Source: Thelephora terrestris
Taxonomy: Eukaryota; Basidiomycota; Agaricomycetes; Thelephorales; Thelephoraceae
Reading direction: 5' to 3'
Assembly: GCA_015956445.1 (NCBI GenBank)
Contig: WIUZ02000023.1
Span: forward strand, 496,001-560,000
Length of the DNA stretch: 64,000 nt
Shown here: positions 4,434 through 63,922 of the stretch, one piece after another
How the letters are laid out: the number at the start of each line of letters is the position of its first letter
Position numbering within the stretch: position 1 is the stretch's first letter
Notes under the pieces: generated by a model
What the model saw: the letters and a program-made list of their open reading frames with translations, nothing else
What the model was told of the DNA's origin: nothing
The model's database searches: none
Position numbers and translations under genes: made by a program

Positions 4434-7400
4434 TGTCAGGAACATGGTATTTTTAAAACTTTTTATAACACGCTCTTTCTTTGAACTCTTCTTACCACTT
4501 CTTATGTTTTGAATGCTTCACACTCCTTATCCTTCACACCAATCATTCAAAAACACACACGCGCGTACTATTCCCAGCGAATCCACATGAGCTATACAAA
4601 GTGCTATCATTGCCCTATCAGAAATCAACTCTATCTACGGCAGGCCTGAAGGTCATCAACTGTCCGTCTCGGAGATCATAGTGTTGGCCCCTCCTCGCTA
4701 GGACCTCCCCGAACATAGCGTCACCGTCTTCTGCACTCAGCTGAACGACCAGTTCAAGCCGATAAGAAGAGATGCCTTCGAGCGGACCGATCAGCCTCCC
4801 AGATGTCACCGAACTCTGGAACACTTGGTCCCACATCTCCATCACTGGGTGATTGCTCGGCAACACTATTGATGTAGTCGGCAAGTGACCCTCCGTCTCC
4901 CTCGTCGGACCCCTGGGTGGGATCCTGTCTTGCGAGTCGAAGCTGGTGGCGAAGCTGGATCTCCGACTCGACCTGTCGGTAGGGACGGTTGACCCAGCAG
5001 CGGAACTCTCGTCCCCCATTGCGACCAGACTGGTCACCATCCGACTCAACTGGACGCGGGTACGGGTAAGCCGAAGGAGCCATGCGATGAGCAAGACGGC
5101 GTCGAGAGCGTTTGCAACGTTGCCCCTTAGTCACCGGACGTACCTCGGCGACCCTCGGAGCCTCTTCGGCTCGGTCAACCTCCATGACCTCATCCTCAAT
5201 CTTCACCAACTGACGGATTGGCTGCAAGACACAGCGCCCACAGTTCTCCTTGTCGGAAGCAGCCAAAGTCGAAGCCGGACCCGGAGTCGGAACAGGAACG
5301 GAGTTCTCAACCGGAGGCGTCGCATAGGACGATGGGTTAGGAGATGGGAGTACCACCTCGTCGGCGTACTCCAGCTCGAATGGAACGTCGGCTGTCCCCT
5401 GACCAACCAATTTGGGACCCTCCTTACAGTTGCAGGTCTTGGCCTGCAAGGACTCGACCTGTGCTGTCAACACAGCCACCACGTTCTCAAGTTCCTCAGT
5501 CTAGAAGAAGTGTCAGCTTCCCTCATTTCGTCTTTGAGATGAGGAAAGCTACCTTTTCATCCCTTCTGGCCAACGCCCCCTTGATATTGTTGTCCCGAAC
5601 CTTCAACCCTGCGATCAACTCCTGATGATTGGCAACCATTGCCTCCAACGCTTCATTCGTTCCTTGTTGGAAGGCTGCCAAGGTCTCCTTCATTTGAAGA
5701 CCTTCCGCTGATAAACGAAGGACGTCTGCCTTCGCCTCTTTCACCTCACGCTCCAATCGTTCCACCTAGGCAGTCTGATTAGTCGAGAGTCATACTCGAA
5801 TATTCAGACGGAAAACCTACCCGGCTTTCTCCCTCCCGAACGAGCGACCACAAAAGGCTAGTGGAAGCGGTGGCATGGCGGACAGCCCGAGGAACAGTCG
5901 CTCCGTGCTCCAATAGGTCCTGATCGTAGATTCCCCTCTGCAGGGTGTACCAGAGCTCCTTCTTGATCGGATGCTCCAACTCTCCAAACCTACCCCTCAT
6001 CTGGAAGGCCACCTTCTCGGCGATGATCGCGCGGACCCAGAGCTCATCGTCCCAGGTCAATCCCACCAAGTGAGGCATCGTCTCCCTGAGACGTTCGGCG
6101 TCCACTTTTGTGACGACCTCCAAGATCTAGAAGCCGTTAGTTTGACATCAACGCCAAAAGAATGTTCCTCTACCTAGAGGAAGGCGTTAGTGCAAACATA
6201 CTAAGCTCTAGGTCTCCCCCATACCTGGTCATCCGTGGTATAGGGAGTCCCCGCCGCACAGGCATAGGTCTTGTGAGTGGCGGCACGACGGTCGATGCGA
6301 GAGATGGTAGAGATGCTGTTGGCAACCTTGTAGGTATGGTTGTTGGGGAAGGACATGTTTTGGTAAGATGATGGGGAAGTTGCTGGTCTTGCTGATCAAG
6401 GATGGCTCCAAGAAGACGTCCTTCTTATAGCCTAGATCGGTGATCCTTCACGTGACCTACCTCGACGAACCTCATTGGTCCGGGTCACATCAACTTCCGC
6501 CCCTGTACCATCATCGTCGGCTTACTACATCAAGCTGACACCTCGGCCCGCGGGACGGCCTTGGAAGAACTTTGTTCCAGAACGCTTAGAACGCGCGCGC
6601 ACTAAAAATAGGTCTCAAGACCCTGATGACCCCTTTATGACATCACGAACCCCCTTTACGACCCCTCATGACTTTATGATTACGATCAACCCTGGACCCT
6701 GATCACACACGTGGACAGTCACATCACAGTCTCCTAACCGGAGGAAGGAATCGCCGTTATTCGGAAGGAGTGCCTTAGACTCCTTTTGTTTAGCCCAGCA
6801 AATGTGGAGTAGCCGTTAGCGTGAAACGCCGGCGAATCTGTAATCCCTCATGTCCCATGAGTCTAGGCTTGACCTCCTCATGTTCGGACGTACGTTGAGG
6901 TTGCCACTAGTCCGTGATGCTGTTACCGCCTACAGACAACAAGGGATGTTTGCATGGCTCTACTCCCGAATCCGCTGGTACAACTATGTAAAGGGAGATT
7001 GCCACCTGACCCTTGGGTGTGATCCCCAGGTACGAACTTTCATGACCCCATGCCCCTATTTCTTTTAGGACTAGTGTTATCTTTACCCCTATGTTTCATG
7101 CGGACATTCCTTATCTTTTATGCAATCCTTCACACGCTAGTAAGGCCCTTTGTCCTTTATTCTCCCACGCGTCACCTTTGTTCGCTTCCCTTACTTAGCG
7201 TTCTCACACTCCTTATCTCCCTTTGTTCTGGACTTGATAAGGGTATATTAGGGTATTGACGTCATGGCCACTCCTTTAGTATAAGTAGCAACTGTGGCTG
7301 TATCGTAGTACCTTAGTTTTGTTAGCTCAGGAAATCCTCTGCCCTTCTCAGCCCAGTTGCAGTTAAAGGACAAGTCAGAGTTTCTTGTTTGATCCAAGAC

Positions 7401-7733: not shown

Positions 7734-7770
7734 CCTGAGGGCAGTAAGTGGTTCAGCAGGAAATGAGAGA

Positions 7771-8736: not shown

Positions 8737-8752
8737 GCCCAGGCTCATAACC
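8737..8752 (-). promoter_or_regulatory. Retrotransposon primer binding site, tRNA-iMet anticodon half
   Basis: On the minus strand the LTR end CTCAACA is followed without a gap by GGTTATGAGCCTGGGC. The GGTTATGAGCC core is complementary to the anticodon stem-loop of initiator methionine tRNA (GGCUCAUAACC). Priming from this internal half-tRNA is known for copia-type elements. The position directly next to the LTR end supports the call. Confidence 0.65.
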
Positions 8753-9220
8753 TGTTGAGCAGGTAGAGTATATTCTATACTACTACATGGCGTACTCTAT
8801 TCCTTACCTGAGAGGGGAAGATGTAATAGTGCAAGTGAGGGTGAGAGAGAGAGAAGCGATTAATTGATCTATTTACACATGTGGGGTATATATATCTATC
8901 TACTCTATTGGCGTCACAACTATACAGTGTGACTGATGCAGGGTCCGTGCGGCGGCTTAAGGCACTCGCACGTCATACTGATCGATCGGATCACTGATGT
9001 GATACCGTTGCTTTGGGTCGCTTATTCAGCACTCTCTGGCATCGGCTCTCACTCAAAGCGGTGGAGCTGGTTGACCCATTGCCAGGCACAGACCTCCGGT
9101 TCAACAGAATGCAAGGGATGAAAGAAAGGGAGTGTGAGGCATTCAAACAATAAGAAAAGATAAGAAGAGTTCAAAGAAAGAGCGTGTTATAAAAAGTTTA
9201 AAAATACCATGTTCCTGACA
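8753..9220 (-). mobile_element. Minus-strand LTR of a probable copia element
   Basis: Read on the minus strand this 468-bp unit starts TGTCAGGAACATGG and ends CTGCTCAACA, that is TG...CA. It contains a TATATATACC box near 8895 and a CT-rich stretch after it, and it abuts a half-tRNA-iMet primer site at 8737-8752. It would be the 5' LTR of an element running leftward, plausibly the copia at 1-4336. However, about 590 bp of unexplained leader and two other insertions lie between. Its outer end is inserted in the helicase reading frame that resumes at 9224, so that gene is cut here too. Confidence 0.65.
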
Positions 9221-14006: not shown

Positions 14007-16203
14007 TCAATGCCACAAAACACCTGAACGGGGTGAAACATCATGGAGAAATGGAAGCAGATGCATGTAGTGGGGGAGTCTGAGCCTTTGATGAAGAACA
14101 TAGGTTGTTATGGACCTCTTCCAAACACAAACTTCTAGATCAGAGATGGATGAAAAGAAGCGACCATCAGAGGAGAACGACATCATGAAAACCGGGTGGG
14201 TTGGAATGAGGCTGTGTTCCAGAAGGAACCGGGAGTCTAGAACATCCCAGACTGAAAGTGTATCTTCAACAGCAATGCCAAGTTTGGAGTGAGCAGGAAG
14301 GAAATGAAACCTACTCCACTCCGTATAAGCGGTCTTGTCTGGCAGAGCAAAGGATTCAGTTATTGCTGGTGTGTGTACCAAGGTGAATTCGGCTTCCCAT
14401 ATGTCAATGGACCCTGGTTTTACAGTGGCAAAACAAAGATGTTCACCATGAGTCCAAATTGGGGGTATGATGCGTGTTTCTGGAGGACAATAAGGGGATG
14501 TATGGGTCAAAGAGAGAAGGTTGTAGGTAGCAATGGAAATTAGGCTGGGGTTGAGTCGTGAGCTACCTGAAACTGCAAGTATCTTTCCATCCACAGAACA
14601 TGCAGATGAGAAGAAACACTCAAAGTTCACATCAGAAGAGGAGACAGTACCAACTGGACCACCTGTCTGAATGTCCCAGCTAATGAGCCCCTCCCCAGAA
14701 CATTGGGTTAAAGTGTGACCGTCTGGGGAGAAACTAAGCTTGGATGAACCACAACCATGAGGGAACCCAAAGGTGTTACGTCGCTCAAGAGTTGCTGCAT
14801 CAAGAATTTCTATTGCCCAGTTTCTGGCGACAGTGATGAACCTGTTGCAAGGTGACCACACCACTGACTCGTAAAATTCATCAATATGCATGGTTGCAGG
14901 AATTGGGTCCCATGAATTTGGTAACCCCTGCACAACCCTTGTTGAGGGACAGGCATGTTGGTTGTACAGCTCACGTACAATTGATGTTTGGGGGGATAGG
15001 GGGAGTGCTGAGATATAGATGTGTGGTGCTGATGTGCTGATGACGCCAAAGAACATGAGTATGAAGTGGAGATAATCTCTGGCAAGGTTTACAGTTTGCG
15101 GCACCTGGATCCAGCCTGATAAGCTTTTGGGGAACAACAAACAATGAGATACAACATACATCTGACCACTTTTCTGTCCTTTCCATTGCATCAACTGCTT
15201 CACTTGTGGCACCAAGGACGCTGAGTACTTCCAGCCAACACAGAAACTTTTCCTCCAGAAATTTGGTCAAGACAGGTGTGATTTTGAGTTTCTGGGCCAG
15301 TCTCATGTCTTTGAGGTGCTTGTGCCATGATCTACAGGCGTATTCCAATGCTTTGTCAATGTGTTTTTCTGCTGTCTGCTTCAGGTCCTTGACCTCTGTG
15401 TTGATGACCCCATCCGGAAGCTTGCACAGGTTCCGCTCCAGCTTTTTGTTCATCAGTTCAAGACAGCCAATCAGGAGTGCCGTGTGTTGATCATCAGGAG
15501 GTTGGAGGCAAAACCTCAGATCCGCACACCGGGTTGGATCAATGATGTAGTCAGGAAAGGACTTGTGGAAGGGTTGAACAGGATGGTCAACATTCTCCTG
15601 GAGGATGAGGAGCGAGTGCATCGATGACAGGAGGGTTGATATGTATGTGATATCAAAGCCTAGGATTGCAGCGATGGTGGATGGAGAAAGAGGATTTGTG
15701 ACGAGTATCACAGCACCAAGAACCAACCGGACCTTGGGATCGTTCTCTGGGTCGTCGTCACCAAAAGCCTCGCGGAGAATTGTAGTGTAGAGTGAGTCAA
15801 GTGTAGCGCCCGCTCCAAGTTTAGTCTTCCCCTCGGACCTGCTCTCCTGTGACCGTATGAGCCTGTCCACTTGTTCCCTGGGGCTCATGTTCTTGAGGCC
15901 AATGAACCTAACTGTGGCCATTGCATAGATGAACAGCCCTGCGGTGCGTGTACACAGCAGGTCCAGCTGTTCTTCGGTCGGCCAGTCGTCCAATCCGTAT
16001 TGATGGCTCTTGATCTCTGCGCATTTGTGTTTATAGAACAGCCATATGTCATTATTGACTCGATCCGGCTTGACATCGTGAAGGACAAATACGTCTGTGA
16101 CCTTGGCCAACAGCGGGAGACGGAACCCATTTCGAATTCGTGGCTCTGGGCGACCGGTGACGAAGAACTTTACCCTCGGGATCTGATCCACAAATTGGCC
16201 AAG

Positions 16204-19135
16204 TGTCAGCGCGCTGAATTTCATTCCCTTTTTGAACCATTTTTTACACCCAACTTGCGCCCACTTTCCTTACCTATACCCCTTTCTTATTTTATCATTT
16301 CCTTATCACGACTCACACGTCATCAAGAAACACAGACAAGGACACTGATGATATTACACAAGGCGCACAGCGAAGACACGAGGCTATCAAACCGACGAAG
16401 TTGGATCCGCCCGGACTCTATGGACGAAGACTAAGACGTACAAACCCTGGTCGTCAAGACCTAGTCTGCCAGTACTCCTCAGCACTGGCAACCTCCTCCT
16501 CCGTCCCCTCCGAGGCATTCTCGTCGACTTCCTCGTCGACCATCTCGACGACCCGAGCTTCCTCCAGACGATGAGCGACGGCCAACTGAACCTCGGCGCG
16601 AAGGCGGTTCCTCGCTGAATCGACCATAGTCTGATCCAGAGTCCTCTGGACTGACCAACCCTCCACCCTCTCGGTCAGTTGAGCCACCAGGCGAACAGCC
16701 TCCGCTGCACGCTGGACCGACAAGAGCGTAAGGTCGGTTAAGCCGTTCACGTCGACGGACTCCACCGGAATCAGCTCGCCGCGATCCACGCGATACTGTA
16801 GCATCGTCGCATCGGAATAGGACGGTGGATTCGATGTCTCCACCCTGGCGGACAATGTTGGGATTACTGGGATGCATGCGGTGCGCTGGACGAAGTGCCC
16901 CGCGATAAGGAACCCAACGACGAGCACGGATAGAACGTTGCCCACGCACCGGCGAGATCGACGGAGGCGGGATCGGAACGGCCACTTCGTTCTCCCCCGC
17001 GTACTCCAACTCGGGAGAACTGCTAACCGGATTCACGGCCGTCTCCTCAGACGTCTCGCGAACGACCTCCTCCCCGCCATCAGTATGCGCAGGTGTGCGG
17101 TACGACCCATCGGAAGCTAAGAAGAGATGTCAGTGGACAAGCCAAATATGTCAACCGACATCCCACCTATGGGAGAAGCCATCCGATCAGGTATCAACTC
17201 GTCCTCGGACTCGTCGCGGACCGCAGCCACCGAACGAGTGCGGCAGTGACACAACCGCTCACTCATCGACTCGACCCGAGCACCCAACAACGGCAAAGCG
17301 TCGTCCAACGTATCGACCTAGGAATGGCATGAGCTCTCTTGGGCAAAGACCAGGAGAAGTCGCACCAACCTTGGTGTCGAGCTCATTCAGAGCCCTTCTA
17401 TGACGATTGAGCCGTCGGTCGACCTTGATCAGGTCTCGTTGAATGGTGTCATCCCGTTCCTTCAAGGACTCGACCAACCGATTGTGTTCTTCACGCATCG
17501 CCAGCATCTCGCTCTCAAACGTGACGCGAAGCGTATCGTTCATCAGGAGCAGCGTTTTCTTCATGTCCAACGCTTCCGAGTACATCCTACGGGCATCATC
17601 TTTCGCTTCCTTCACCTCACGCTTCAGCCGCTCATTCTACAAGCCTGTCAGTGTTATCCCACAAGCGGGATGCACAGACCAACTCACCGCTTTCTGTTCG
17701 GTCCTCAAAAGGAACCAGAGACGGTGACCAACGGCTGCTGTAAAGTGTTGCGAACGAGTCGCTCCCGGCCACCTTCCTTCGCCATTTCCCAAGTCATAGA
17801 TTCCCATCTTCAGAAGACCCCATAATGATGACGCCACCAGAGTCTCCCATGGCATACGCAACTCGGTGTCAAACGTGACCCCGCGCATAGACTCTTGCAA
17901 CTTGTGGTCAATCAAGTTGTGGTACCACAGCTCGTCGTCTATGGTCAAGTAGTTGGGAGGCTTGGCTATCGTCGCCTCCAGTTGTCGAGCATCCACTTTG
18001 GCGGCAACCGCGAAGATCTACGATGCGATGTCAGTTGTTGCCAGCAAACAGCGACACGTGACGTCGCACCTCGCGATAACTAGGGTACGCCACGTTGGCG
18101 TTCGGAAGGAAGTAACTCTTGTTCTGTACGGAGCGCGGATCCGCAGACTCGATGGTAGCGGTGCTGTTCTCAGCACGGAAGACACGATCGGAGATCATGG
18201 GCATAATGGATGAGTAGTTGGTTGGTGGGATTGTTGATTTGGGAAGAAAGGAGTTTGATGGATCCAATGGCCGGTTCGCACTACGCTTTATTCGATCCTC
18301 GACAGCGCCTGCACCCTATTCGCCATTGGCTCGGCCCATCGTTTCACCGGTCCAGACTCCTCATACATTCACCTTCGACATTCACGCCCCACTCGGTCCT
18401 TTGTTGTCCCGATCGGACGAGCTGACGCGTCGTCCCCTCATTGGTTCACCCTTGCATGTGATATTATCCTTTGTCATTTCTTTCCCACACGACGTCATGA
18501 CCCCTTTCTTATTTTCTCACGAACCCTGACCCATTAGTCATTCCTTTATCATTTCAATTCTATACTCCGGGCCGCTTACTGTTCGTGCTTACTCTCGGCC
18601 CTTCTTTGTTCCGAGTTATTATTAGATAGGGTTATCTATGTCCCGGCCACTCTCTTATATAAGTACCAGTAGAGTAGCTGAGGACTCCCCATCTTTGATA
18701 TCTCGGGAAGTCCTCTTCTCCTTGCAGCATCGGTGTATTTGCTGTAGGCCACTGAAGAGCTTATCGAGTAACTCCTTGAACCGTTCGCTCTCCTCTCTCA
18801 CTCAGTCTTGATCCTTAACCGGTGTTTGAAGCGAGCTCGGACACGACATCGAGTTCCGCACTGCTCTTTGGATCAAGTCATCAGTTTGAGGCGCCATCCT
18901 CGGGCTCTTGTATCTGCCCTCAGAAGACGATAGGGATCTACCTGATAGAGGCTCGGCACTCCTGCTGTGAATTCGGACAACCTACCGGAGAACGCTCGTC
19001 CATCGCGTTTTGGACCACGAAGACTTTGGGTGGATATAGGGAAGTCGTTCCCCCTTTGCCCCATTGTTTCTTGTTGGTTGGAGTTGCGACTCACCAACAG
19101 CACTGGTACCTGAAGGGCGAAGAGTGGCCCTGACA
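16204..19135 (+). mobile_element. Giant TG...CA element (2932 bp), TSD CCAAG, inside NACHT-WD40 gene A
   Basis: It starts TGTCAGCGCGCTG and ends GAGTGGCCCTGACA, flanked by CCAAG at 16199-16203 and 19136-19140. The paralogous gene B reads TTGGCCAAGGACAG without interruption near 27692. This shows the empty site and confirms both ends. The two ends share only TGTCAG as an inverted repeat, and no LTR pair or mobility gene lies inside. TTATATAA at 18655-18662 is a possible core promoter, followed by about 480 bp to the right end. A complete six-exon gene lies on the minus strand. The unit is near-identical to 60990-63922. Confidence 0.9.
16454..18204 (-). CDS. Element-borne coiled-coil protein, six exons, 493 aa
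   Basis: Function unknown. Exons read by eye are 18204-18070, 18017-17688, 17636-17370, 17317-17167, 17116-16950 and 16885-16454. They total 1482 nt with every junction in phase and GT-AG introns of about 50-64 nt. The start at MPMISDRVF is chosen because it aligns with the start of the diverged copy (MSFPNNHTY). Exon 2 holds a conserved tryptophan-containing block (DDELWYHNLIDHKLQ, SSLWGLLKMGIYD). Exon 3 is a long coiled coil (NERLKREVKEAKDDARR...). Exon 4 has a CHC motif. The last exon is helical and acidic, ending EEYWQTRS. The whole gene lies antisense within the TG...CA element, and its promoter must lie in the 450 bp between 18204 and the TATA-like palindrome at 18655. No transposase or nuclease motif is seen. 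Confidence 0.72.
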
Positions 19136-19601
19136 CCAAGGACAGAAAGGATTGCAGAAGCGGGTTCGTCATCTTTGCATTCGTCCAACGCGTCAATCAC
19201 AATCACAGTTGAGATCGCGGATTCTACGAGGGGCTGGACAATCAGCTTGTCCATCTGGCCATACAAAGACTCGTGGGCGACCTCTGGATCCGACCGTACC
19301 AGCGTGACGAAGATCGACCGGAATTTGGTATATGTCCGCGCAAGTTGGACGGCCAGGGTGGGGAAGATGAAACGGAGGTTGCTCCGGTCTTCAAAGTCTC
19401 TGGAGCAGAAGAAGGAGGCACCGAGTCGTCCCTCTGCGAAAGGCCTCTCCGCGATTGTTTGAGCAATGGTGCTCTTCCCCGTTCCAGCGAGACCGTTCAG
19501 CCAGTAACCTGGGGCTTTGTAAAAGTCGCATGCCCAGAGCTCGATCTCGTCCAGGACGGTACCGCGGGTCCCCTTGAGACATCGGTTGCGGTTGCCATGG
19601 C

Positions 19602-20497
19602 CACTGGGGGCAAGGGGTCAAATACCCAGTGGGTACATGCTGAATACATTGTGATCACAGTCAAAAAGTGATCACAATGTGCCCAGTGGGGAAAATTTGA
19701 ATACATTCAAAATGTACCTGGCCATGTGAACCCAATGTGCCCACTGGGGACATTTTGATTGCGATCACAATGTACACATCAATGTGATCTGAATGTGCCT
19801 GCTGTGCACATTTTAATTTCTTTCACAATGTCCCCATCAATGTGTCCCCAATGTACCCAGCTCATTACATAATAGTTTCTTTCACAATGTTGTCCACAAT
19901 GTGTCCAGCATGTGGCTGAGCCACTCATTCAAACCTTCTTTCACAAAGTGTCCAGTGATGTGTCCATAATGTCCCCAGGGGGTTCTTTTTGAAGTAATCA
20001 CAATGTAATCACAATATTGTTCAATTTCACCATGAACTTTCAAAGAAATCACTATGTGTATGGCTGTACACATTCTAGACACATCACTGGATACTTTGTG
20101 AAAGAATTTTGAATGAGTGGCTCAGCCACATGCTGGACACATTGTGGACAACATTGTGAAAGAAACTATTATGTAATGAGCTGGGTACATTGGGAACACA
20201 TTGATGGGGACATTGTGAAAGAAATTAAAATGTGCACAGCAGGCACATTCAGATCACATCGATGTGTACATTGTGATCGCAATCAAAATGTCCCCAGTGG
20301 GCACATTGAGATCACATTGATGGGTACATTGTGATCGCAATCAAAATGTGCCCACTGGGCACATTGGGTTCACATGGCCAGGTACATTTTGAATGTATTC
20401 AAATTTTCCCCACTGGGCACATTGTGATCACTTTTTGACTGTGATCACAATGTATTCAGCATGTACCCACCGGGTATTTGACCCCTTGCCCCCAGTG
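19602..20497. mobile_element. CACTG palindromic miniature element 3 (896 bp), TSD GGC
   Basis: The ends are CACTGGGGGCAAGGGGTC and its inverse, flanked by GGC (19599-19601 and 20498-20500). Gene B has the empty site (CCATGGCGGTACTC near 28150). The element is a near-complete palindrome centred near 20040, made of repeated CATTGTGATC / GATCACAATG and AATGTGCCC motifs. It is non-coding. Confidence 0.9.
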
Positions 20498-24678: not shown

Positions 24679-27600
24679 TCACTCCAAAAACTCCAGGATG
24701 ACAGCTTCCGGAAGCCCATTGTGTTTCAGCCCAAGAAATCGTCCACTCCATATCCTGTCCCTATGAGATGACCTCCAATGATGCGGTAGCCATAAAAGTC
24801 GCTTCTTGGTGGGGCTCAATACCCATCCATCTTGCGTGACTTCATAACCACACTGCGAACCCCAAGGGGGTGGCTGCTGTGGGCGCATATCCGCACTTAG
24901 GGGCTTCAACGTGGTGGTGCCGGACTCGCGGTCTTCAGTGACTTCCCAACCATTCGCATAAGTTCCAAAGTTACACCAGACCTCGTGTTCACCCAGGTCG
25001 ACATGCGAGTACGCGTGAGGGAATGGTTCGAGGCCTGCAAGCAACCTCCCGGTTGACGTGTCATGGATTTGTAGACGTTGGGTCAGCAGTTCAGGAGTAT
25101 GCGTGAGCACGGCAATGCGGCTGAGATCAGGGGATATCGATTTTTCACGTGGACCGTATAGTTGTAGATCTGAGAGATCGAGCGTCGCAGTATGAGCGCT
25201 GTCCTCGACGCTCGCCCTGGCGCCGACACAGTGTTCCTCTGGTATGTTCCAAATGATGACTCTCCCCTCGCCGGCAACAGCGACAGCACTCCTTGTCACC
25301 CTCAGGCACATAATCTCCATACTTGCGTCAATATCCAACCACAGGTCACCAGACTGTAGGTCGCGAATTGTGACCGTGGTTCCCGGATGGCGCACGGATG
25401 CTGATAATACATTTTCGGAGGAGAAGTCCAGAGTGTGGGAGCGACCACTTTCGTAAGCTGAAGCACCGGGGAGGAAGTGAATTCGATCTCTGGTGTGCCA
25501 TACGTAAATTGTCTGGCCGCCGACAGCAATAATTGTTTCTCCGTCTGGTGATAAAACGGCTACCACGTACAAAGAGGGGAGTGTGACAATTTGATGAAGA
25601 ACGTAGCTTGAGGGGGACTTCTTCCAAACGTAGATGTTTCGCCCGGCGCTGGTTGAAAAGAAGCGACCATCGGAGGAGAACGACATCTTGAGACCAGCTG
25701 AGACTGGAATGTGGCTGTGGTTCAGAGAGAACCGGGAATCTAGAATGTCCCAGATCGAAATTGTATCTTGGGCAGCAAAGGCGAGTTGGGAGAGAGCGGG
25801 AAGGAACAGACACTGTCCCCGCTCTACATCAGCGATATCGTCTGGTGTAGCAAAAGATCCGATTATTGCTGGTGTGTGTACCGAGGTGAATTCGGCTTCC
25901 CATATGTCGATGGACCCTGGTTTTACAGTGGCAAAACGAAGACAATCGCCGTGAGTCCAAATCGGGGGCACAATGCGTCCTTCCGGAGCATGATAAGAGC
26001 GTGTGTGGGTCCAGGAGAGAAGGTCAAAGGTGACAATGGTGAAAACGAGGGTGAAGTCGGGGCGTGAAGAACCCAAAACTGCAAGTATCCTTCCATCCAT
26101 AGAATACGCAGATGAGAGGAAGTCAACGAAGTCCGCGTCTACAGAACCTCCTGGACCGCCTGTCTGAATGTCCCAGCTGTTCATCCTCACTTCGCAGAAT
26201 TGGGTTAGAGTGCAACCGTCCGGAGAGAAACAGAGCGGGCGATAAGGGACGCCTTTAGGGGACCGGAAGACGTTACGTCGCTCAAGAGTTGCTGCATCAA
26301 GAATTTCTATCACTCCAGATTTGACGACAGCGATGAACCTGTTGCACGGCTACCATGCGGCTGACCCCCAAAAATCCGCATCATACATGGTCGCAGGAAT
26401 CGGGTCCCACGAGATCGGTAATCCTTGCACGACCCTTGTTAAAGGACAGGCGTATTGCTCGTACAGCTTGCGTACAATTGACGTTTGGGGGGATAGGGGA
26501 AGCGCTGAGATATAGACATGTGGCGCTGACGTGCTGATGATGCCAAAGAACTTGAGTACGAAACGAAAATAATCTATGGTAAGGTCGAGAGTCCGCGGGA
26601 GCTGGACCCAGCCCGATAAGCTTTTGGAAAACAACAGAAGATGAAATACAACATACATCTGACCACTTTTCTGCCCTTTCCATTGCATCAACTGCTACCC
26701 TTGCGGCACCAAGGACGCTGAGTACTTCTAGCCAGCACAGAAACTTTTCCTCCAGGATTTGTTCAAGACAGGAGTGATTTTGAGTATCTGGGTCGGTCTC
26801 GTGTCGTTGAGGTGCTTGTGCCACGATCTACAGGCGTATCCAAACGCTTTGTCGATGTGTTGTTCTGCCCTCCACTTCAGGTCTTTGACCTCTGTGTTGA
26901 TGACCCCATCCGGGAGCTTGCACATGTTCCGCTCCAGCTTGTGGTTCATTAGCTCGAGACAACCGACCAGGAGTTCTGTGTGTTGATCAGGAGGGTGGAC
27001 GCAGAACCTTGGATCCGCACAGCGGGCTGGATCGACGATGAAGTCGGAAAAGGACTTGTGGAAGGGCTGGACAGGATGATCGACGTTCTCCTGGAGAATT
27101 AGGAGCGAGTGCGTTGATGACAGGAGAGGAAAGACGTCTGCGACATCAAGACCCAGGATTGCAGCGACGGCGGATGGAGAAAGAGGGTTTGCGGCGAGTA
27201 TCACAGCACCAAGAACCGACCGGACCTTGGGATCGTTCTCTGGGTCGTCGTCGCCGAAAGCCTCACGAAGAATTGTCGTGTACAGTGAATCGAGGGTGGC
27301 GCCCGCTCCAAGTTTGGTCTTCCCCTCGGACCCGCTCTCCTGTGACCGTATGAGCCGATCCAGTTGTTTTCTGGGGTTCATGTTCTTGAGGTCAATGAAC
27401 CTGACCGTGGCCATTGCATAGATGAACAGCCCTGCCGCACGTCCACACAGCAGGTCCAGCTGTTCCTCGGTTGGCCAGTCGTCCAATCCGTGTCGACGGT
27501 GCTTAATTTCTGAGCAGTTGTGTTTATAGAACAGCCGTATGTCGCTATTGACTCGACCCAGCTCGACATCGTGGAGGACAAACACATCCGTGACCTTGGC

Positions 27601-30583
27601 CAACAGCGGAAGACGGAACCCGTTTCGAATTCGTGGCTCCGGACGACCAGTGACAAAGAACTTGACGTTAGGGATTTGATCCATGAATTGGCCAAGGACA
27701 GAGAGGATTGCAGAAGCGGGTTCGTCATCTTTGCATTCGTCCAGCGTGTCGATCACGATCACGGTTGAGATCGCGGATTCTATGAGGGGCTGAACAATCA
27801 ACCTGTTCATCTGGCCATACAGCGACTCGTGGGCAACCTCTGGGTCCGACCGTACCAGCGTGACGAAGATCGACCGGAATTCGGTATATGTCCGCGCAAG
27901 TTGGACGGCCAGGGTTGGGAAGATGAAACGGAGGTTGCTCCGGTCTTCGAAATCTCTGGAGCAGAAGAAGGAGGCACCGAGTCGCCCCTCTGCGAACAAC
28001 CTCTCCGCGATCGTCTGAGCAATGGTGCTCTTTCCCGTTCCAGCGAGTCCATTCAGCCAGTAAGGAGGAGCTTTGTGAAAGTCGCATGCCCAGAGTTCGA
28101 TCTCGTCCAGGATGGTACCGCGGGTCCCCTTGAGACAACGGTTGCGGTTGCCATGGCGGTACTCGGCCTGTCTAGCGCAGCGAAAATCGTTGAGGGTACC
28201 CGCTTCGGCTGCAGAAGGAAGCGCGTCAGGGATCCGTCACTGGGAAAGAAGGAGCGGAAGGTTCTCTAACCCGGGTCCTGCAGAGAGGGGTCATTTCCTT
28301 GGCCCAGACGTAATTGGGAAAACCCACCATCGATTTGAACCCTCGATCTACGATCCCTGTTTGTTGTGCCATCTGTTATCCTTGTTAATATCGAAAAGAA
28401 CGCCCCGTCGTGAACAAACCTGATAGAGGAAAATTGCGTCTTGTAGATCTTCGAGGAGCGTAAACAGATCTCCATTGCATTGAACGTTATCGGTGAGTCG
28501 CTGCAACTCCAGTCCCCCGCAAAACAACCGTAGTTGCCCTTCGATACCCTTGAGCTCACTGGAAGGGTGTGTCAGCACTGGGCGCGAAGGGGGAGGGTCA
28601 CACCATACTCAATGACTCTATTTCTGCGCCTCTGCTCCGCCACGTTACCTGGGGGAGTCGCAAAAAGTCTATCCAGTGAGGTTACACGTGAGAGAAGCCT
28701 CGCAGCCACATTCTTGATGGTTGCGTGCTGTTACGGTGTGGTGAGTCAAAGCAAGATTTCAAGCAGGGAATCGTGGGCTGACTTCGCGATCCGTGCAGAT
28801 ATCAGAGATGGTTCTAAGGAGAGATTTGAGCGGACCAAACCCCACTACGCCTTCATTTGCGATATCTGGGTGGCTTATAGAAGCGTTGAGCACCGTGTCC
28901 TTGCGGCTTTGCTCTGGAACCGATAGGTGCTTAGAGCATACGAATAGCACAAGGATATCAGCGCATACCCTCCGATGCCATGTCTGGTCCAGCTTCCCGT
29001 ATTATATGACCGACGTTTCCTGCTGAAGGGCAAAGACACCGAGATCTAGGTGAACGTTTGCCGATATGACGAGGATTGGTGGGACTCACTCATAAGACGG
29101 CCCCCTTGTTCGATATCGGGGATCGCTACAACGGTCGAGGATCCTGGTATGGGGGGTTTGTATGGCGGTCGAAGTGCACAAAAAATATTCTCACGCGCGC
29201 GATGCAATCACATCGCGCGAAACCTGTCACCCCGCACGAAACTCCCCAATCATCTCGCACGAAACTTGTTGCTCACCTCGCACGTGTTGTCCCCCACGTC
29301 GCACGAGCACCCAGACTCCTCCTGAGGGGGATTCCCGCCTTTTTTCTAATAGATCCGAAGGTAGGTAGTCTATTCCGTCAGTTTTCACACTATATAGAGG
29401 TAGTTTCGGGGCGGTATTCCCATTTTTCTGACCTTCGGAACGGCCTCGGGACTTTCCGAGACCCGTGATCCGATCAATTCCTCGGTATTCCGCTTAGAAT
29501 TGCCGCAAATTGACATCCGAAAACTCGCCGAGGCGTTGTGCTGCCGCTGAGGCTCTTTTCATGATATTTCAAGTACATGTGTGTTTGCTCCTCTAGGACT
29601 CGTGACAGCCTTCCTATGTTTGTTTTCATGTTATGTTATTTTTGACATATTTTATTAGTTAGACTATTTTATTATGAATTGGTGAAGGAATGCTGAGGGG
29701 TTGAAAGCGGGCGAACCACAGTGAGGTTACTTATCTATCGAGTGGGATGCGGATTGTCTCGAAACGGGATGCAGTCAAGGCCAAAAACAGGCGAACATAT
29801 GATCAACGATATGTCGAAAATAACATAAGATAAAATCAGATGTAGGAAGGCTGTTGCAGGAGTCTCAGCGGCAGCACAACGCCAGACAACGCCTCGGCGA
29901 GTTTTCGGATGTCAATTTGCGGCAATTCTAAGCGGAATACCGAGGAATTGATCGGATCACGGGTCTCGGAAAGTCCCGAGGCCGTTCCGAAGGTCAGAAA
30001 AATGGGAATACCGCCCCGAAACTACCTCTATATAGTGTGAAAACTGACGGAATAGACTACCTACCTTCGGATCTATTAGAAAAAAGGCGGGAATCCCCCT
30101 CAGGAGGAGTCTGGGTGCTCGTGCGACGTGGGGGACAACACGTGCGAGGTGAGCAACAAGTTTCGTGCGAGATGATTGGGGAGTTTCGTGCGGGGTGACA
30201 GGTTTCGCGCGATGTGATTGCATCGCGCGCGTGAGAATATTTTTTGTGCACTTCGACCGCCATAGGTTTGGGGGCTTCACTTTCCCTTTTGACGAATTCG
30301 ATCCGTGAAGGCTCGGGGTTGTTCTCGTCTAGTGGAACCGGGTCGATCAGCTCGAATTCATAGTAAGGTAACTCCGCTCACCTTTGGGGTCGATATCCAG
30401 TGCTGCTCGGAAGTCAAGCGGACCGACGGCAATGTTAGTTGGGATTCCCAACAAAAGATGCTTCGCAGGGTATCCGAGCGATTTCTTAGGCTTTATGTTG
30501 GGTATTAGTTTCTTCATGTTGATGGTGAGACGCAGCAAACGATGTCGATCCGATCTGGTTTTGAGTTCAAGGTGAAGGGCCAC
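24679..30583 (-). pseudogene. NACHT-WD40 receptor (NLR-like), copy B, with insertion, frameshift and stop
   Basis: This is the paralogue of gene A in the same orientation, about 10 kb away. From the right: N-terminal segment (MKKLIPNIKPKKSL), a helical part with LLEDLQDAIFLYQ, then the NACHT domain. Walker A is GLAGTGKSTIAQT near 28045 and Walker B is VIVIDTLDECKD near 27750. Helices follow down to about 26760, then a WD40-type propeller of at least 540 residues (SWDIQTGG, SIDIWEAEF, ISIWDILDS, IYVWKKS, IYVWHTRD) ending ILEFLE at 24679. A one-base deletion near 26757 shifts the frame where gene A reads KFLEEKFLCWLEV. A TAG at 26350-26352 replaces the serine codon of gene A. A 1104-bp element (29161-30264) splits the N-terminal part. 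It retains the empty sites that date the insertions in gene A. Probably non-functional. Confidence 0.85.
29161..30264. mobile_element. 1.1-kb element with ~400-bp terminal inverted repeats, 6-bp duplication GGTTTG
   Basis: The ends are TATGGCGGTCGAAGTGCAC and its inverse, flanked by GGTTTG (29155-29160 and 30265-30270). Gene A shows the empty site (GGGAGTTTTGGAGC near 21500). Arms of about 395 bp are almost identical; one carries a 9-bp extra copy near the inner end. Each arm has several spaced GCACGAAAC/GCGCGAAAC motifs, likely transposase binding sites. The AT-rich centre (29570-29860) has no gene. The superfamily is not assigned. Confidence 0.82.
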
Positions 30584-30885: not shown

Positions 30886-35381
<4,496 letters not shown>

Positions 35382-47045: not shown

Positions 47046-48120
47046 CAGTAGTGCTTACCCAAGTTGTGACACAAACCTGGACTTTGTCCACAGGTCTGTG
47101 TGCATTAGGTCCCCTCGTTGTGTTATTCATTTACTGAGTAGATACATTCACAAATTGGTCCACGGCTTGTGTGGTTTGTACTACGAATGCCTCCCAGGTT
47201 TGTGTGAATAACAATGCCGGCCAGTATGGCTCGCTTAATGGCTGACAGCTAGCTTCTCGGGGGTGATGGGGGGTGAATACCGGCCTCCCATCAATCAGGG
47301 CCTATCAAGACGCGTTGCAACCGTGAGAATCCCTTGCATAGCACGTCCTCGCTGGCGCCTCCCTCCCATCAATTCCGGTCCCTTCTGACGCGCTGCAACC
47401 GTGCGAATTCCTCCTGCGGCGCGTCATTGCTGGCGCCTCCCTCCCATCAATTCGGGTCCCTTTCGATGCGCTGCAACTGTGTGAATCCCTCCTGCGGCGC
47501 GTCATCGCTGGTGCCTCCCTCCCATCAAGATGCCTCTATGCGGAGCAATCGTGGGAACTGCCCTTCCCATATGTCATGGCCCCTCCCGTGACATATCTCA
47601 GCCCTCCGGTATAATATTTTCTTCCCCCCTGCACGCGTTCTATATGATGTTCTGTATTAAATAAATAATAAATAAAATAAAATAAATTGTAAATAAAAAA
47701 TTAGGGTGAATAATCAGAAACACGTGAGCAGCATTGGTGACCATACCCACCCATATGCGCGCCAAAAAGAACGGCAAGGTGCCAGCTCATTGGGTTCTGG
47801 CGACCGCAGGCGCTCAAACCCAGTTGCATCGCACTTGGTTTTCCACGCAAATAATGTAGCCTTCATAATAATCTCACTTTTAGTCTGGTGTAGACATGAC
47901 AAATATATATTTACATTCCATCCGAGCCCCTCAAACACGTTTGTTTGTTGTGCATTTGCGAACAACAAACCTGCCCCGTTCTCCGATAATTTCCTTTTTT
48001 GGAATTTCCCTTTTTGGAATTTCCTTTTTTGGAAGTCAGAACAAAATTTTATACAAGTCCGCAAGCGCACCCACACGAAAATTCAACTCACGGGTCACAC
48101 AATGGAAGGGAGATCAAGAA
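47046..48120 (+). repeat. Left long terminal inverted repeat of the KDZ element
   Basis: It matches 56700-57878 in reverse. Within it, about three tandem units of 60-75 bp (near 47330-47530, GCGTCATYGCTGGYGCCTCC) form a minisatellite; the right arm holds about four. A triple GGAATTTCC(C/T)TTTTT block lies at 47990-48035. Confidence 0.85.
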
Positions 48121-56699: not shown

Positions 56700-57878
56700 C
56701 TTTCCAAATTGACTCTTGATCTCCCTTCCGTTGTGTGACCTGTGAGTTGAATTTTCATGTGGGTGCGCTTGCGGACTTGTATAAAATTCTGTGGTGACTT
56801 CCAAAAAAGGAAATTCCAAAAAGGGAAATTCCAAAAAAGGAAATTATCGGAGAATGGGGCAGGTTTGTTATTCACAAATGCACAACAAACAAACGTGTTT
56901 GAGGGGCTCGGATGGAACGGAAATATATATTTGTCATGTCTACAACAGACTAAAAGTGAGATTATTATGAAGGCTACATTATTTGCATGGAAATCCAAGC
57001 GCAACGCAACTGGGCTTGAGCGCCTGCGGTTGCCGGAACCCAATGAGCTGGCACCTCACCTGTCCTTTTTGGCGCACGTATGCGTGGGTTCAGAAAATCT
57101 GGATATGGTCACCAATGCTGCTCACGTGTTTCTGATTATTCACCCTAATTTTTATTTACAATTTATTTTATTTTATTTATTATTTATTTAATACAGAACA
57201 TCATATAGAACGCGCGCAGGGGGGAAGAAAATATTATACCGGAGGGCTGAGATATGTCACGGGAGGGGCCATGACATATGGGAAGGGCAGTTCCCACGAT
57301 TGCTCCGCATAGAGGCATCTTGATGGGAGGGAGGCGCCGGCAATGACGCGCCACAGGGGATTCGCACGGATGCAGCGCGTCTTGATGGACCTGAATTGAT
57401 GGGAGGGAGGCACCAGCGATGACGCGCCGCGGGAGGGATTCACACAGTTGCAGCGCATCAAAAGGGACCCGAATTGATGGGAGGGAGGCGCCAGCAATGA
57501 CGCGCCGCAGGAGGAATTCGCACGGTTGCAGCGCGTCAGAAGGGACCGGAATTGATGGGAGGGAGGCGCCAGCGAGGACGTGCTATGCAAGGGATTCTCA
57601 CGGTTGCAACGCGTCTTGATAGGCCCTGATTGATGGGAGGCCGGTATTCACCCCCCATCACCCCCGAGAAGCTAGCTGTCAACCATTAACCGAGCCATAC
57701 TGGCCGGCATTGTTATTCACACAAACCTGGGAGGCATTCGTAGTACAAACCACACAAGCCGTGGACCAATTTGTGAATGTATATACTCAGTAAATGAATA
57801 ACACAACGAGGGGACCTAATGCACACAGACCTGTGGACAAAGTCCAGGTTTGTGTCACAACTTGGGTAAGGACCCCTG
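56700..57878 (-). repeat. Right long terminal inverted repeat of the KDZ element
   Basis: Inverted match of 47046-48120, slightly longer because its internal minisatellite (57310-57620, GGGAGGGAGGCGCCAGCAATG-like period) has an extra unit. Differences between arms are scattered single bases and small indels. Confidence 0.85.
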
Positions 57879-59518
57879 CGCTGGTACCGAAAGCTGGAAA
57901 GCCAGGCAAGTACCGCCTCATACAAAACCTGTCATACCCACACACGAACCTCCCTCTCCCCTCAATCAACTCGCAACTCAACTCAGACGACTTCCCATGT
58001 ACCTGGGGCACCTTCCGAACCATGTGCACCCTGATCTTAAACCTCCCACAGAATGCACAAGCTGCGACGCGCGACATTGCCGAGGCGTACAGGATCATTC
58101 CCTTACATGAAAGTCAGTGGGCCGGGGTCGTTGTGCGCATCTCCAACTCCCCAGATCATTTCGCGCTGAACACGAGCAACTCGTTCGGTTGCGCGACGGC
58201 AGGAGGCCTCTTTGGGCTGTTTGGAGATGCTCTGGCAGACATACTGCGCGCCAAAGGAATCGGCCCGATCCTGAAATGGGTTGACGATTTCCTCTTCATA
58301 CGAATCCCATCAAAGGAATTGCAACAATACAACGTGGAACGAGAGACAAACCGGCAGATCACGCTCTCAAACGGAGGCGCGCTGCAGAATGGGGGACGCC
58401 TTTGGTACAAAGGCAAAGTGAGGGCCGACCTAGGAGTCGAGCACTTTGCAGAAGACCTGAATTTCCCTATTCGACAACTCAAAGAGCACCGCGAACAAAA
58501 TACGTCCTACCCATACGGCTTCGATGAGATCAACAAGATCACCGACCCGCTAGGCATCCCATGGGAATTATCGAAGGACACCCCGTTCAAGTCCAAAGTA
58601 ACCTTTGCAGGCCTCGAGTGGGATCTAAAGGAGAAAAGGGTCGCTCTCCCTGAGTCCAAGAAGGAAAAGTACAGTAGGGCTATCAACGAATGGAAAGAGA
58701 AATCAACCTACACACTTGAGGACGCACGCAGGCTATACGGAAAACTATTGTATGCCTGCCATGTGGTGCCTCGTGGACGAGCCTACTTAACCAACCTCGA
58801 AAAAATGATGGGAACATTTCACGATCGCCCTTTCCTCCCACGACACCCGCCCAAACACCTCAACGACGACCTGACGTGGTGGTCAGCCCTGCTCTCTCGA
58901 ACCCCCCTATCGCGTGAAATTCCTGGAAATCGACCCATCATCGACATCCGAGCCTTCTCGGATGCCAGTTCATCTGTTGGCATTGGCATCACGATCGGCA
59001 ATAAATGGCGCGCATGGAGACTCCTCCCGGGCTGGAAAGCCTCAGGAAGAGACATTGGTTGGGCCGAAGCCGTCGGCATGGAACTCCTCATCCGCACTGT
59101 TCTCCGATATCATTCACTCCCAGGCATCAAAGTTTATGGAGACAACAAAGGGGTCATTGAGGGATGGTGGGCAGGAAGGAGCCGCAACGCTGAAACCAAT
59201 AGAGTCTTCAAACGCATTCACGACCTACTGGAAAGCACCAACACTGTCCTCACCACGCGATACATCCATACCTCCAGCAACCCAGCCGACGCTCCCTCCA
59301 GGGGTCACTACCCTGCAAAACAGTTCCTCCTTCCCCCCATCGACATACCAGAAGAGATCCAACCCTTCGTCACAAACTTTGATACCCCCCTCCAACCCTG
59401 CGAACGAGATCCTACTCGACGCCTTCCTGAAACATCCAAAGAGATCTATGAAGGGATTCTCTGGACAAAAATCCACCTCATTCTTTTGGCACACCGGTTC
59501 TGCAATGGAGAAGGATGA

Positions 59519-60523: not shown

Positions 60524-60989
60524 TTGCTTTCACGGCGAAACCCTTCATCGATCTCCCCCCCCCCTTTGCTGGACGCAGCCAACCAAAATGATCGTTTCTC
60601 TCCAGCCCACGCTCCTCCCATGCCTACTACTCACCAAGCACCTGGCCCTCACAGGCCTATTCACCTCTACCAACCGTTCGCTGGACCTATCCCTCCCACC
60701 TCCATCGATTCACGCCCAGGCCTTCCTTTTGGAATCCCCTTGAATCAATCAGCACCAATACTTCGGCAGTTCCGTCCGCGTGAAAACCAAGCTTCGTCGA
60801 CAAGCGAGGAGAACCGAAAGAGGAGCATAGCCAGGAACAGCAACAAGACCAAGAGGAAAACCCAGGTCGCCAGAGCCTACGAAGAACCGTCAGCATCGAA
60901 CCCTGTTGACAGAAATGTTTCCGTCCTGTTTTTCCCTCTCAATGTATTGCTGTTTTGTTTTTCCAATCAACTCCACTCTCACATGCGCT
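60524..60989 (+). CDS. 5' part of an unrecognised proline-rich protein, interrupted by the TG...CA element
   Basis: The frame starts at ATG 60524 and is proline/serine-rich (PPMPTTHQAPGPHRP), then basic (ENRKRSIARNSNKTKRKTQVA). After about 60910 the sequence turns T-rich (FPLNVLLFCF) and is probably intronic. The 2933-bp element sits at 60990, and the flank resumes at 63923 with CACCTAACCCTCCTGCCAG followed by a protein-like FPQFPDSIEELQPG. An element in an intron would explain this. No family is recognised and the rest is outside the window. Confidence 0.35.
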
Positions 60990-63922
60990 TGTCAGGGCCA
61001 CTCTTCGCCCTTCAGGTACCAGTGCTGTTGGTGAGTCGCAACTCCAACCAACAAGAAACAATGGGGCAAAGGGGGAACGACTTCCCTATATCCACCCAAA
61101 GTCTTCGTGGTCCAAAACGCGATGGACGAGCGTTCTCCGGTAGGTTGTCCGAATTCACAGCAGGAGTGCCGAGCCTCTATCAGGTAGATCCCTATCGTCT
61201 TCTGAGGGCAGATACAAGAGCCCGAGGATGGCGCCTCAAACTGATGACTTGATCCAAAGAGCAGTGCGGAACTCGATGTCGTGTCCGAGCTCGCTTCAAA
61301 CACCGGTTAAGGATCAAGACTGAGTGAGAGAGGAGAGCGAACGGTTCAAGGAGTTACTCGATAAGCTCTTCAGTGGCCTACAGCAAATACACCGATGCTG
61401 CAAGGAGAAGAGGACTTCCCGAGATATCAAAGATGGGGAGTCCTCAGCTACTCTACTAGTACTTATATAAGAGAGTGGCCGGGACATAGATAACCCTATC
61501 TAATAATAACTCGGAACAAAGAAGGGCCGAGAGTAAGCACGAACAGTAAGCGGCCCGGAGTATAGAATTGAAATGATAAAGGAATGACTAATGAGTCAGG
61601 GTTCGTGCGAAAATAAGAAAGGGGTCATGACGTCGTGTGGGAAAGGAATGACAAAGGATAATATCACATGCAAGGGTGAACCAATGAGGGGACGATGCGT
61701 CAGCTCGTCCGATCGGGACAACAAAAGACCGAGTGGGGCGCGAATGTCGAAGGCGAATGTATGAGGAGCCTGGACCGGTGAAACGATGGGCCGAGCCAAT
61801 GGCGAATAGGGCGCGGGCGCTGTCGAGGGTCGAATAAAGCGTAGTGCGAACCGGCCATTGGATCCATCAAACTCCCTTCTTCCCAAATCAACAATCCCAC
61901 CAACCCACTACTCATCCATTATGCCCATGATCTCCGATCGTGTCTTCCGTGCTGAGAATAGCACCGCTACCATCGAATCTGCGGACCCGCGCTCCGTACA
62001 GAACAAGAGTTACTTCCTCCCGAACGCCAACGTGGCGTACCCTAGTTATCGCGAGGTGCGACGTCACGTGTCGCTGTTTACTGGCAACAACTGACATCGC
62101 ATCGTAGATCTTCGCGGTTGCCGACAAGGTGGATGCTCGACAACTGGAGGCAACGATTGCCAGGCCTCCCCTCTATTTGACCATAGATGACGAGTTGTGG
62201 TATCACAACTTGATTGACCACAAGCTACAGGAGTCTATGCGCGGGGTCACGTTTGACACCGAGTTGCGTATGCCGTGGGAGACTCCGGTGGCGTCATCGT
62301 TATGGGGTCTTCTGAAGATGGGAATCTACGACCTGGGAAATGGCGAAGGAAGGTGGCCGGGGGCGACTCGTTCGCAACACTTTACAGCAGCCGTTGGTCA
62401 CCGTCTTTGGTTCCTTTTGAGGACAGAGCAGAAAGCGGTGAGTCGGTCTGTGCATCCCGCTTGTGGGATAACACTGACAGGCTTGTAGAATGAGCGGTTG
62501 AAACGCGAAGTGAAGGAAGCGAAGGATGATGCCCGCAGGATGTACTCGGAAGCGTTAGACACGAAGAAGACGCTGCTCCTGATGAACGACACGCTTCGCG
62601 TTACGTTTGAGAGCGAGATGCTGGCGATGCGTGAGGAACACAATCGGTTGGTCGAGTCCCTGAAGGAACGGGATGACACCATCCAGCGGGACCTGATCGA
62701 GGTCGATCGACGGCTCAACCGTCACAGAAGGGCTCTGAATGAGCTCGACACCAAGGTCGGTGCGACTTCTCCTGGTCTTTGTCCAAGAGAGCTCATGCCA
62801 CTCCTAGGTCGATACGTTGGATGACGCCTTGCCGTTGTTGGGTGCTCGGGTCGAGTCGATGAGTGAGCGGTTGTGTCACTGCCGCACTCGTTCGGTGGCT
62901 GCGGTTCGCGACGAGTCCGGAGACGAGTCGATTCCTGATCGGATGGCTTCTCCCATAGGTGGGATGTCGGTTGACATATTTGGCTTGTCCACTGACATCC
63001 TTTTTAGCTTCCGATGGGTCGTACCGCACACCTGCGCATACCGATGGCGGGGAGGAGGTCATTCGCGAGACGTCTGAGGAGACGGCCGTGAATCCGGTTA
63101 GCAGTTCTCCCGAGTTGGAGTACGCGGGGGAGAACGAAGTGGCTGTTCCGATTCCACCTCCGTCGATCTCGCCGGTGCGTGGGCAACGTTCTATCCGTGC
63201 TCGTCGTTGGGTTCCTTATCGCGGGGCACTTCGTCCAGCGCACCGCATGCGTCCCAGTAATCCCAACGTCGTCCGCCAGGGTGGAGACATCGAATCCACC
63301 GTCCTATTCCGATGCGACGATGCTGCAGTGTCGCGTGGATCGCGGCGAGCTGATTCCGGTGGAGTCCGTCGACGTGAACGGCTTAACCGACCTTACGCTC
63401 TTGTCGGTCCAGCGTGCAGCGGAGGCCGTTCGCCTGGTGGCTCAACTGACCGAGAGGGTGGAGGGTTGGTCAGTCCAGAGGACTCTGGATCAGACTATGG
63501 TCGATTCAGCGAGGAACCGCCTTTGCGCCGAGGTTCAGTTGGCCGTCGCTCATCGTCTGGAGGAAGCTCGGGTCGTCGAGATGGTCGACGAGGAAGTCGA
63601 CGAGAATGCCTCGGAGGGGACGGAGGAGGAGGTTGCCAGTGCTGAGGAGTACTGGCAGACCAGGTCTTGACGACCAGGGTTCGTGCGCCTTAGTCCTCGC
63701 CCATAGAGTCCGGGCGGATTCAACTCCGTCGGTTTGATAGTCTCATGTCTTCGCCGCGCGCCTTGTGTAATATCATCAGTGTCCTTGTCTGTGTTCCTTG
63801 GTGGCATGTGAGTTCGTGGTAAAGGAAAGGATAAGATAAGAAAGGGGTATAGGTAAGGAAAGTGGGCGAAAGTTGGGTGTGAAAAATGGTTCAGAAAGGG
63901 AATAAAATTCAGCACGCTGACA
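60990..63922 (-). mobile_element. Giant TG...CA element (2933 bp), TSD GCGCT, inverted relative to the copy at 16204
   Basis: The ends TGTCAGGGCCACTC and ...AGCACGCTGACA are flanked by GCGCT at 60985-60989 and 63923-63927. It is a near-identical full-length copy of 16204-19135 in reverse orientation, one base longer, including gene, TATA-like palindrome and both ends. Different target duplications show two independent insertions, not a segmental duplication. Confidence 0.92.
61921..63670 (+). CDS. Element-borne coiled-coil protein, second near-identical copy
   Basis: Same six-exon structure as 16454-18204: start MPMISDRVFRAENS at 61921, exon 2 from IFAVADKVDARQLE, coiled-coil exon at about 62489-62755, an exon starting VDTLDDALPLLGARVES, an exon with ELEYAGENEVAVP, then a GTGCGTGGGC donor at 63175 and a 64-nt intron leading to the last exon that ends EEYWQTRS at 63670. 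In the last exon only a handful of residues differ from the first copy and no stop or frameshift was seen. Retention of a spliced reading frame in two independent insertions suggests recent spread or selection. The gene is antisense to the presumed LTR direction of its element. Confidence 0.7.

Follow-up and report, generated by a model that had tools for sequence, protein, structure and literature searches.

Units with the features of giant solo LTRs in Thelephora terrestris carry an intron-bearing antisense gene

The window analyzed here (C16:496001-560000, the whole stretch of 64,000 nucleotides) belongs to the assembly of the ectomycorrhizal agaricomycete Thelephora terrestris, which comprises 40.6 Mb in 60 contigs (labelled C1, C4, C5, etc.) and over which the genome-wide searches were run. 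It contains three units with TGTCAG...CTGACA ends, located as given in a preliminary description of this DNA, and the 5-bp target site duplications (TSDs) flanking them are all perfect (Table 1). One unit represents a 3.3-kb family (B), and the other two, inverted copies of each other that are 96% alike across two long arms, represent a 2.93-kb family (A). For the copy at 16204-19135, an empty site lies within the window itself, in a paralogous host segment that matches the joined 200+200-bp flanks of the insertion (Table 1).

Paralogous blocks with long ORFs, which we take to resemble NACHT/WD40-type genes, occupy positions 14007-30700, and one of these blocks bears the unit at 16204-19135. 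Between 46000 and 59500, a large inverted repeat (arms at 47046-48119 and 56714-57878, mostly 93-98%) encloses ORFs, among them one of 574 aa at 57794-59518 that presumably resembles reverse transcriptase; arms and ORFs probably constitute another mobile element. On the minus strand of 207-3548, pol ORFs are found in pieces, which we assume to be copia-like.

Table 1. Features of the window discussed in the text (positions counted from its first nucleotide; for the units, strand denotes the gag-pol sense direction).
Feature	Position	Strand	Remarks
Family-B unit, probable solo LTR, 3300 bp	4434..7733	+	TGTCAG...CTGACA ends; TSD CCTGA; same unit paired around gag-pol-like interiors at C1, C4, C11
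Family-A unit, probable solo LTR, 2932 bp	16204..19135	+	TSD CCAAG; paralogous empty site; unit paired around gag-pol at C5, C23, C12
Family-A unit, probable solo LTR, 2933 bp	60990..63922	-	TSD GCGCT
TSD CCTGA	4429..4433, partner 7734-7738		Flanks family-B unit 4434-7733
TSD CCAAG	16199..16203, partner 19136-19140		Flanks family-A unit 16204-19135
TSD GCGCT	60985..60989, partner 63923-63927		Flanks family-A unit 60990-63922
Paralogous empty site of the 16204-19135 insertion	27497..27896		354/400 flank positions identical, single CCAAG
Antisense gene, B copy, 479 aa	4618..6356; exons 6225-6356, 5821-6126, 5553-5765, 5144-5500, 4618-5049	-	GT-AG introns, open frame, wobble-position substitutions
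Antisense gene, A copy, 493 aa	16454..18204; exons 18070-18204, 17688-18017, 17370-17636, 17167-17317, 16950-17116, 16454-16885	-	Open frame, 477/493 residues as in deposited P0002
Antisense gene, A copy, 493 aa	61921..63670; exons 61921-62055, 62108-62437, 62489-62755, 62808-62958, 63008-63174, 63239-63670	+	Open frame, 485/493 residues as in P0002
B copy: TATA box (7280), presumed RNA 5′ end/self-primer segment from 7314; U3 end	7280..7325	+	Differs from the 12-nt match of the C1 element at the last of 12 bases
A copy: TATA box (18656), self-primer ATCTTTGATAT (18691-18701)	18656..18701	+	11-nt PBS complementarity in the C5 element
112-bp 5′ tip of a B-type giant LTR	9107..9218	-	Bordered by repeat 8751-9106

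That each unit contains a homologous multi-exon gene on one strand had been noticed before, and spliced open frames were indeed found in all three window copies. The gene of family A has six exons (1482 nt, 493 aa), and the model agrees in length and exon joints with a deposited protein (P0002, 493 aa); that of family B has five, encoding 479 or 491 aa. Between its ATG and the TATA box of the opposite, LTR-sense strand, from which the gene points away, there are ∼0.45 kb in A and ∼0.92 kb in B; the distance of its stop codon to the LTR edge is ∼0.25 kb in A and ∼0.18 kb in B. The introns of the A gene are of the GT-AG type, except for one GC-AG intron in both LTRs of an element on C23. In exons 2, 3, and 6 of A, as well as 2, 3, and 5 of B, none of the three LTR-sense frames is free of stops. 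An alternative last exon that keeps the frame of exon 5 was abandoned in favor of the deposited model; codon-position counts switch frame there in both families, strongly in B and more weakly in A, and the last exon is the least certain part of the gene model.

The spliced frame is intact in all 37 end-to-end A copies scored in the genome search (32 plus 5 older ones) and in all 11 B-type copies tested (both LTRs of one element plus nine other LTRs). Of two diverged partial relatives of family A, the one on C58 (83%) is interrupted by stops in exons 2 and 3, whereas that on C12 (87%) is open through exon 5. The decayed 83% relative (L002/L038, C58:731403-733592) is devoid of intron 4, with a small change beside the joint, and family B lacks this intron as well; intron 4 was either gained or lost inside a gene borne by a retrotransposon. 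The proteins of A and B share 32-36% identity, so the gene is older than the split of the two families.

The preliminary description had favored solo LTRs of unusual size as the simplest reading of the units and had proposed to look for pairs of them around gag-pol, with a primer binding site (PBS) and a polypurine tract. Such pairs exist on C5 and C23 for the 2.93-kb family and on C1 for the 3.3-kb family, which, with a single 5-bp TSD around the whole, supports that reading. On C5, LTRs at 1119263-1122194 and 1128062-1130993 enclose 5.9 kb, are flanked by AACTG, and are identical at 2931/2932 positions; on C23, those at 1909986-1912916 and 1918744-1921674 are flanked by ATGTC and identical at 2929/2931. 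Another two A LTRs, with 2 differences in 2934 positions and the TSD GTTTT, surround an interior at C12:1328801-1334463 (96% alike), and the LTRs of the C1 pair (family B; TSD GATTA) agree at 3299/3301. Thus, in the C5, C23, C12, and C1 elements two direct LTRs enclose gag-pol and one TSD lies outside; further family-B pairs on C4 and C11 were judged from coordinates. The polypurine tract adjoining the 3′ LTR reads ...AGAAGGAGGATCC in A and AGGAAGAGGATAA in B. In four more such interiors (two on C12, one each on C56 and C23), a giant LTR was present on the 3′ side in 4/4 examined.

In the C5 and C23 interiors, respectively, the gag ORF encodes 519 and 552 aa, and the pol ORF 1240 and 1278 aa. 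A Pfam scan of the C5 element detected a zinc knuckle in Gag and, in Pol, RVP_2 (79-177), RVT_1 (328-497), RNase H (585-691), H2C2 (796-854), and Chromo (1169-1218), with rve (871-968) remaining below the cut-off; gag-pol runs in the direction of the TATA box. The order PR-RT-RH-IN followed by a chromodomain is that of Ty3/gypsy chromoviruses. The C23 ORFs are of the same make-up, and B interiors are 68-71% alike to those of A in DNA across the aligned parts. No transposase was seen within the units or between paired units. Taken together, the units are very likely solo LTRs of a Ty3/gypsy chromovirus group that has very young full-length members and whose U3 owes its length of 2.5-2.9 kb to a complete intron-bearing gene opposite to gag-pol.

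Genome-wide, 37 end-to-end copies of family A were obtained among 40 candidates scored of 301, and 21 of family B among 40 scored of 636, including the pairs on C1, C4, and C11; the counts are lower bounds, because the search did not list the LTRs of the C12 pair. A TSD count over copies, likewise proposed at the outset, revealed a perfect 5-bp duplication around 30/33 unpaired A copies (26/28 plus 4/5), the exceptions being L009, L024, and L046. Two B-type copies chosen by protein similarity alone (C12:1300402 and C1:3400148) turned out to be solo LTRs with the TSDs CTCTC and ATATA, and the B-type copies at C23:2008877 and C45:1254425 are single LTRs flanked by a TSD as well. In a subset of the 3.3-kb LTRs, a segment of ∼305 bp at positions 2284-2570 (sense numbering), in the stretch that separates the start of the antisense gene from the TATA box of the sense strand, is largely unalignable, which means that the presumed bidirectional promoter region differs between B subfamilies.

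How far U3 extends was deduced from the putative priming mechanism. In Tf1, the PBS is paired by the 11 bases with which the RNA begins (PMC7175516). In family A (C5 element), ATATCAAAGAT, which lies 2 nt inside the 5′ LTR, is complementary over 11 nt to ATCTTTGATAT at LTR position 2488; in family B (C1 element), GTAACAAAACTA can pair over 12 nt with TAGTTTTGTTAC at LTR position 2881. The PBS is thus complementary to the first ∼11 nt of the presumed RNA, as in self-primed (Tf1/sushi-like) elements, over 11 nt in A and 12 nt in B. In both families, the self-primer segment is located ∼34 nt downstream of the TATA box. Its letters differ between A and B, yet pairing and spacing are kept, which fits the prediction of Tf1-type self-priming. 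Placing the end of U3 according to TATA box and self-primer suggests a U3 of ∼2.49 kb for A and ∼2.88 kb for B, with ∼0.42-0.45 kb left for R plus U5. This supports the earlier notion that the antisense gene lies inside U3, of which it spans 60-70%. Self-priming would further predict that sense RNAs begin at ATCTTTGATAT and TAGTTTTGTTA.

A 468-bp LTR (8751-9218), said to lie next to a half-tRNA primer site and to share the first ∼115 bp of the 3.3-kb copy, did not hold up as one LTR: the stretch consists of a ∼356-bp repeat (8751-9106) that abuts the outermost 112 bp of a giant LTR (9107-9218). The 356-bp part is matched at 39 other genomic places, and the 112-bp part accompanies it in only 2 of them; the composite recurs at C58:1770141 and C39:16906. 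The repeat, beside which a half-initiator-tRNA-like site is located, is presumably a copia-type LTR, as judged by that site. A short-LTR relative or ancestor of the giant LTR, as which 8751-9218 had also been considered, was rejected on these grounds.

Whether the antisense frame is under selection was evaluated in the 37 A copies, with each LTR pair counted once and a neutral synonymous share of 0.315. Over the whole frame, shared variants amounted to 200 synonymous, 33 nonsynonymous, and 0 nonsense changes (omega ∼0.08), and private variants to 130, 127, and 2 (omega ∼0.46). The two nominal stops were scored on the majority codon; no copy's own frame is interrupted. For exons 1-3 in 32 A copies, omega of shared variants was 0.02-0.10 in the gene frame and more than 2 in both other frames, and omega of singletons in the gene frame was 0.20-0.47; exon 4 was judged from codon-position counts. 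Over the 37 A LTRs, there were 0 gap intervals in 1482 coding columns versus 45 in 1483 noncoding ones. A chance ORF opposite some other feature was rejected in view of the frame-specific omega and the closed LTR-sense frames. The gag genes of the C5 and C23 elements are separated by 43 synonymous and 7 nonsynonymous changes, and their pol genes by 101 and 6, respectively; by these substitution counts, the constraint on the antisense gene is about that on gag and weaker than that on pol. The pattern indicates strong coding constraint for the time during which the element replicated. Resident solo LTRs are excluded from this statement because private variants are much less constrained.

The last A exon shows a weaker codon-position signal than exons 1-5 do, and little variation in any frame. 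At LTR positions 2400-2600 of family A (antisense numbering), within this exon, both synonymous and nonsynonymous variation is unusually low and two frames are open; dual coding, an overlapping signal, or recent gene conversion are possible causes.

In the predicted protein, the N-terminal region (∼150 aa) is conserved, residues ∼150-265 make up a coiled-coil stretch rich in heptads, and there is in addition an acidic part that includes a proline/serine-rich segment. No Pfam family was matched at its cut-off, which includes PF04195 (TRP28), and no solved structure in the PDB was matched with a useful E-value, so any assignment of function is a guess. Among annotated "hypothetical proteins", ∼320 match the gene, all from T. 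terrestris (62 A-type members plus 257 members in 71 clusters, fragments and fusions included); such proteins were deposited from contigs C11, C16, C5, C58, and C23. The only other matches were five JGI sequences (P0005-P0008 at 74-77% over 22-30% of the query, and P0018), in a protein search that sees only relatives sharing short words and may miss distant homologues in other fungi.

From the layout of the LTR, a life cycle for the gene can be proposed. Its transcription would start at a separate promoter within U3 that is divergent from the TATA box of the sense strand. Because the sense genomic RNA contains the introns backwards, they would not be spliced from it and would be retained through retrotransposition. 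U3, present once per RNA at the 3′ end, would be copied into both LTRs during reverse transcription, each insertion thereby gaining two copies of the gene, and LTR-LTR recombination would delete gag-pol and leave one intact copy. It is thus the location in U3 that would place the gene in both LTRs and let it survive in solo LTRs. Long LTRs beside an interior of 5-6 kb should recombine easily, which is in line with 3 full-length versus 33 single A copies.

As for what the protein does, we tentatively suggest, at somewhat less than even confidence, a coiled-coil accessory regulator that may act in trans on transcription, RNA, or integration of the element; in position, its gene would be comparable to the antisense accessory genes of Grande/Retand or to HBZ of HTLV-1. 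An extension of this idea is speculative and rather unlikely: solo LTRs would be a permanent source of regulator free of gag-pol, jointly acting as a copy-number sensor or as element-derived immunity versus transposition, from which the host may profit. Somewhat less doubtful is that the protein is a positive helper, for example, in assembly, nuclear entry, or integration; a constraint like that on gag and the coiled coil would suit such a role, and nothing speaks specifically against it; the placement in LTRs and survival in solos, though compatible with a helper, suit a trans-acting factor.

Alternatively, the gene could have been captured from the host and be kept for the benefit of the fungus, the solo LTRs being a dispersed host gene family. 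This we consider unlikely. Despite the ∼320 annotated members, the intactness of all end-to-end copies tested, and introns typical for a nuclear gene, the protein searches, limited to candidates with shared short words, returned only T. terrestris proteins and the five JGI sequences; moreover, the gene is common to A and B at an identity that places it before their split, private variants are much less constrained, and one diverged copy has decayed. Still less probable is that the antisense transcript, rather than the protein, matters by overlapping the 3′ end of the sense RNA and feeding RNAi or interference. An overlap of ∼1.7 kb with the 3′ end of the genomic RNA does follow from the layout, and roles of dsRNA have been discussed for plant antisense ORFs (PMC7264820), but codon-level constraint and the lack of coding indels require a protein; both roles can coexist. 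That the units are non-autonomous DNA transposons carrying the gene by chance, as the inverted hexamer ends TGTCAG/CTGACA, the 5-bp duplications, and the lack of a visible transposase inside might suggest, is refuted for practical purposes by the full-length elements, that is, near-identical LTR pairs around a reverse-transcriptase interior with PBS and purine tract inside and one TSD outside.

LTRs are usually treated as regulatory, noncoding ends, whereas the giant ones described here are gene cassettes; the formation of solo LTRs, commonly seen as the death of an element, here preserves a constrained, intron-bearing gene. The arrangement would be a natural case of introns being protected during retrotransposition by their antisense orientation, and with it, a control of copy number by solo LTRs becomes testable. 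The data also suggest that some 320 "hypothetical proteins" of the T. terrestris genome are carried by LTRs, a point to consider when orphan and symbiosis-related gene families are counted.

Individual traits of this arrangement have counterparts elsewhere. The sag gene of MMTV resides, like the T. terrestris gene, in the long U3 of both LTRs, but in sense orientation. HBZ of HTLV-1 is a regulatory protein with a leucine zipper whose coding sequence lies mostly outside the LTR; the HIV-1 LTR is of normal size, and the LTRs of Tf1 are short and without a gene. HBZ and related antisense genes of retroviruses are transcribed from the 3′ LTR (PMC10186651); the likeness, by description, is in the position of an antisense accessory gene, and HTLV-1 is an animal retrovirus. 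In HIV-1, an antisense protein gene (HAP) has been described within U3-R of the LTR, with a 25-nt overlap where the sense RNA begins; the abstract of that work mentions no introns, as opposed to the spliced gene found here (PMC1654176). With Tf1/sushi elements, those of T. terrestris have in common an 11-base self-primer, the gag-pol layout, and solo LTRs (PMC7175516).

Plant Ty3/gypsy elements are known with an antisense ORF between pol and the 3′ LTR (gene23 of Grande, RIRE2, and ORF4/TRP28 of Retand; PMC7264820, PMC11963269). These share with the T. terrestris elements an accessory gene opposite to gag-pol that is conserved across the family; its function there is described as unknown, with nuclear or DNA-binding features reported for some (PMC7264820, PMC11963269). 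A plant solo LTR is devoid of the antisense gene because the gene sits between pol and the 3′ LTR. In contrast, the T. terrestris gene lies wholly in U3, is duplicated with the LTR, has 4-5 introns, and does not match PF04195. A fungal Ty3/gypsy element with an extra antisense gene is Boty of Botrytis cinerea, whose brtn is, by description, likewise found between pol and the 3′ LTR (Zhao et al, 2011, cited in PMC7264820 and PMC8365987), hence in a position different from that in T. terrestris. The aORF-3R type defined by Grande, Retand, and Boty thus does not accommodate a gene within the U3 of the LTRs. A spliced antisense gene that is contained entirely in a fungal LTR, and that persists when the LTR becomes solo, was not found described in the open-access literature searched.
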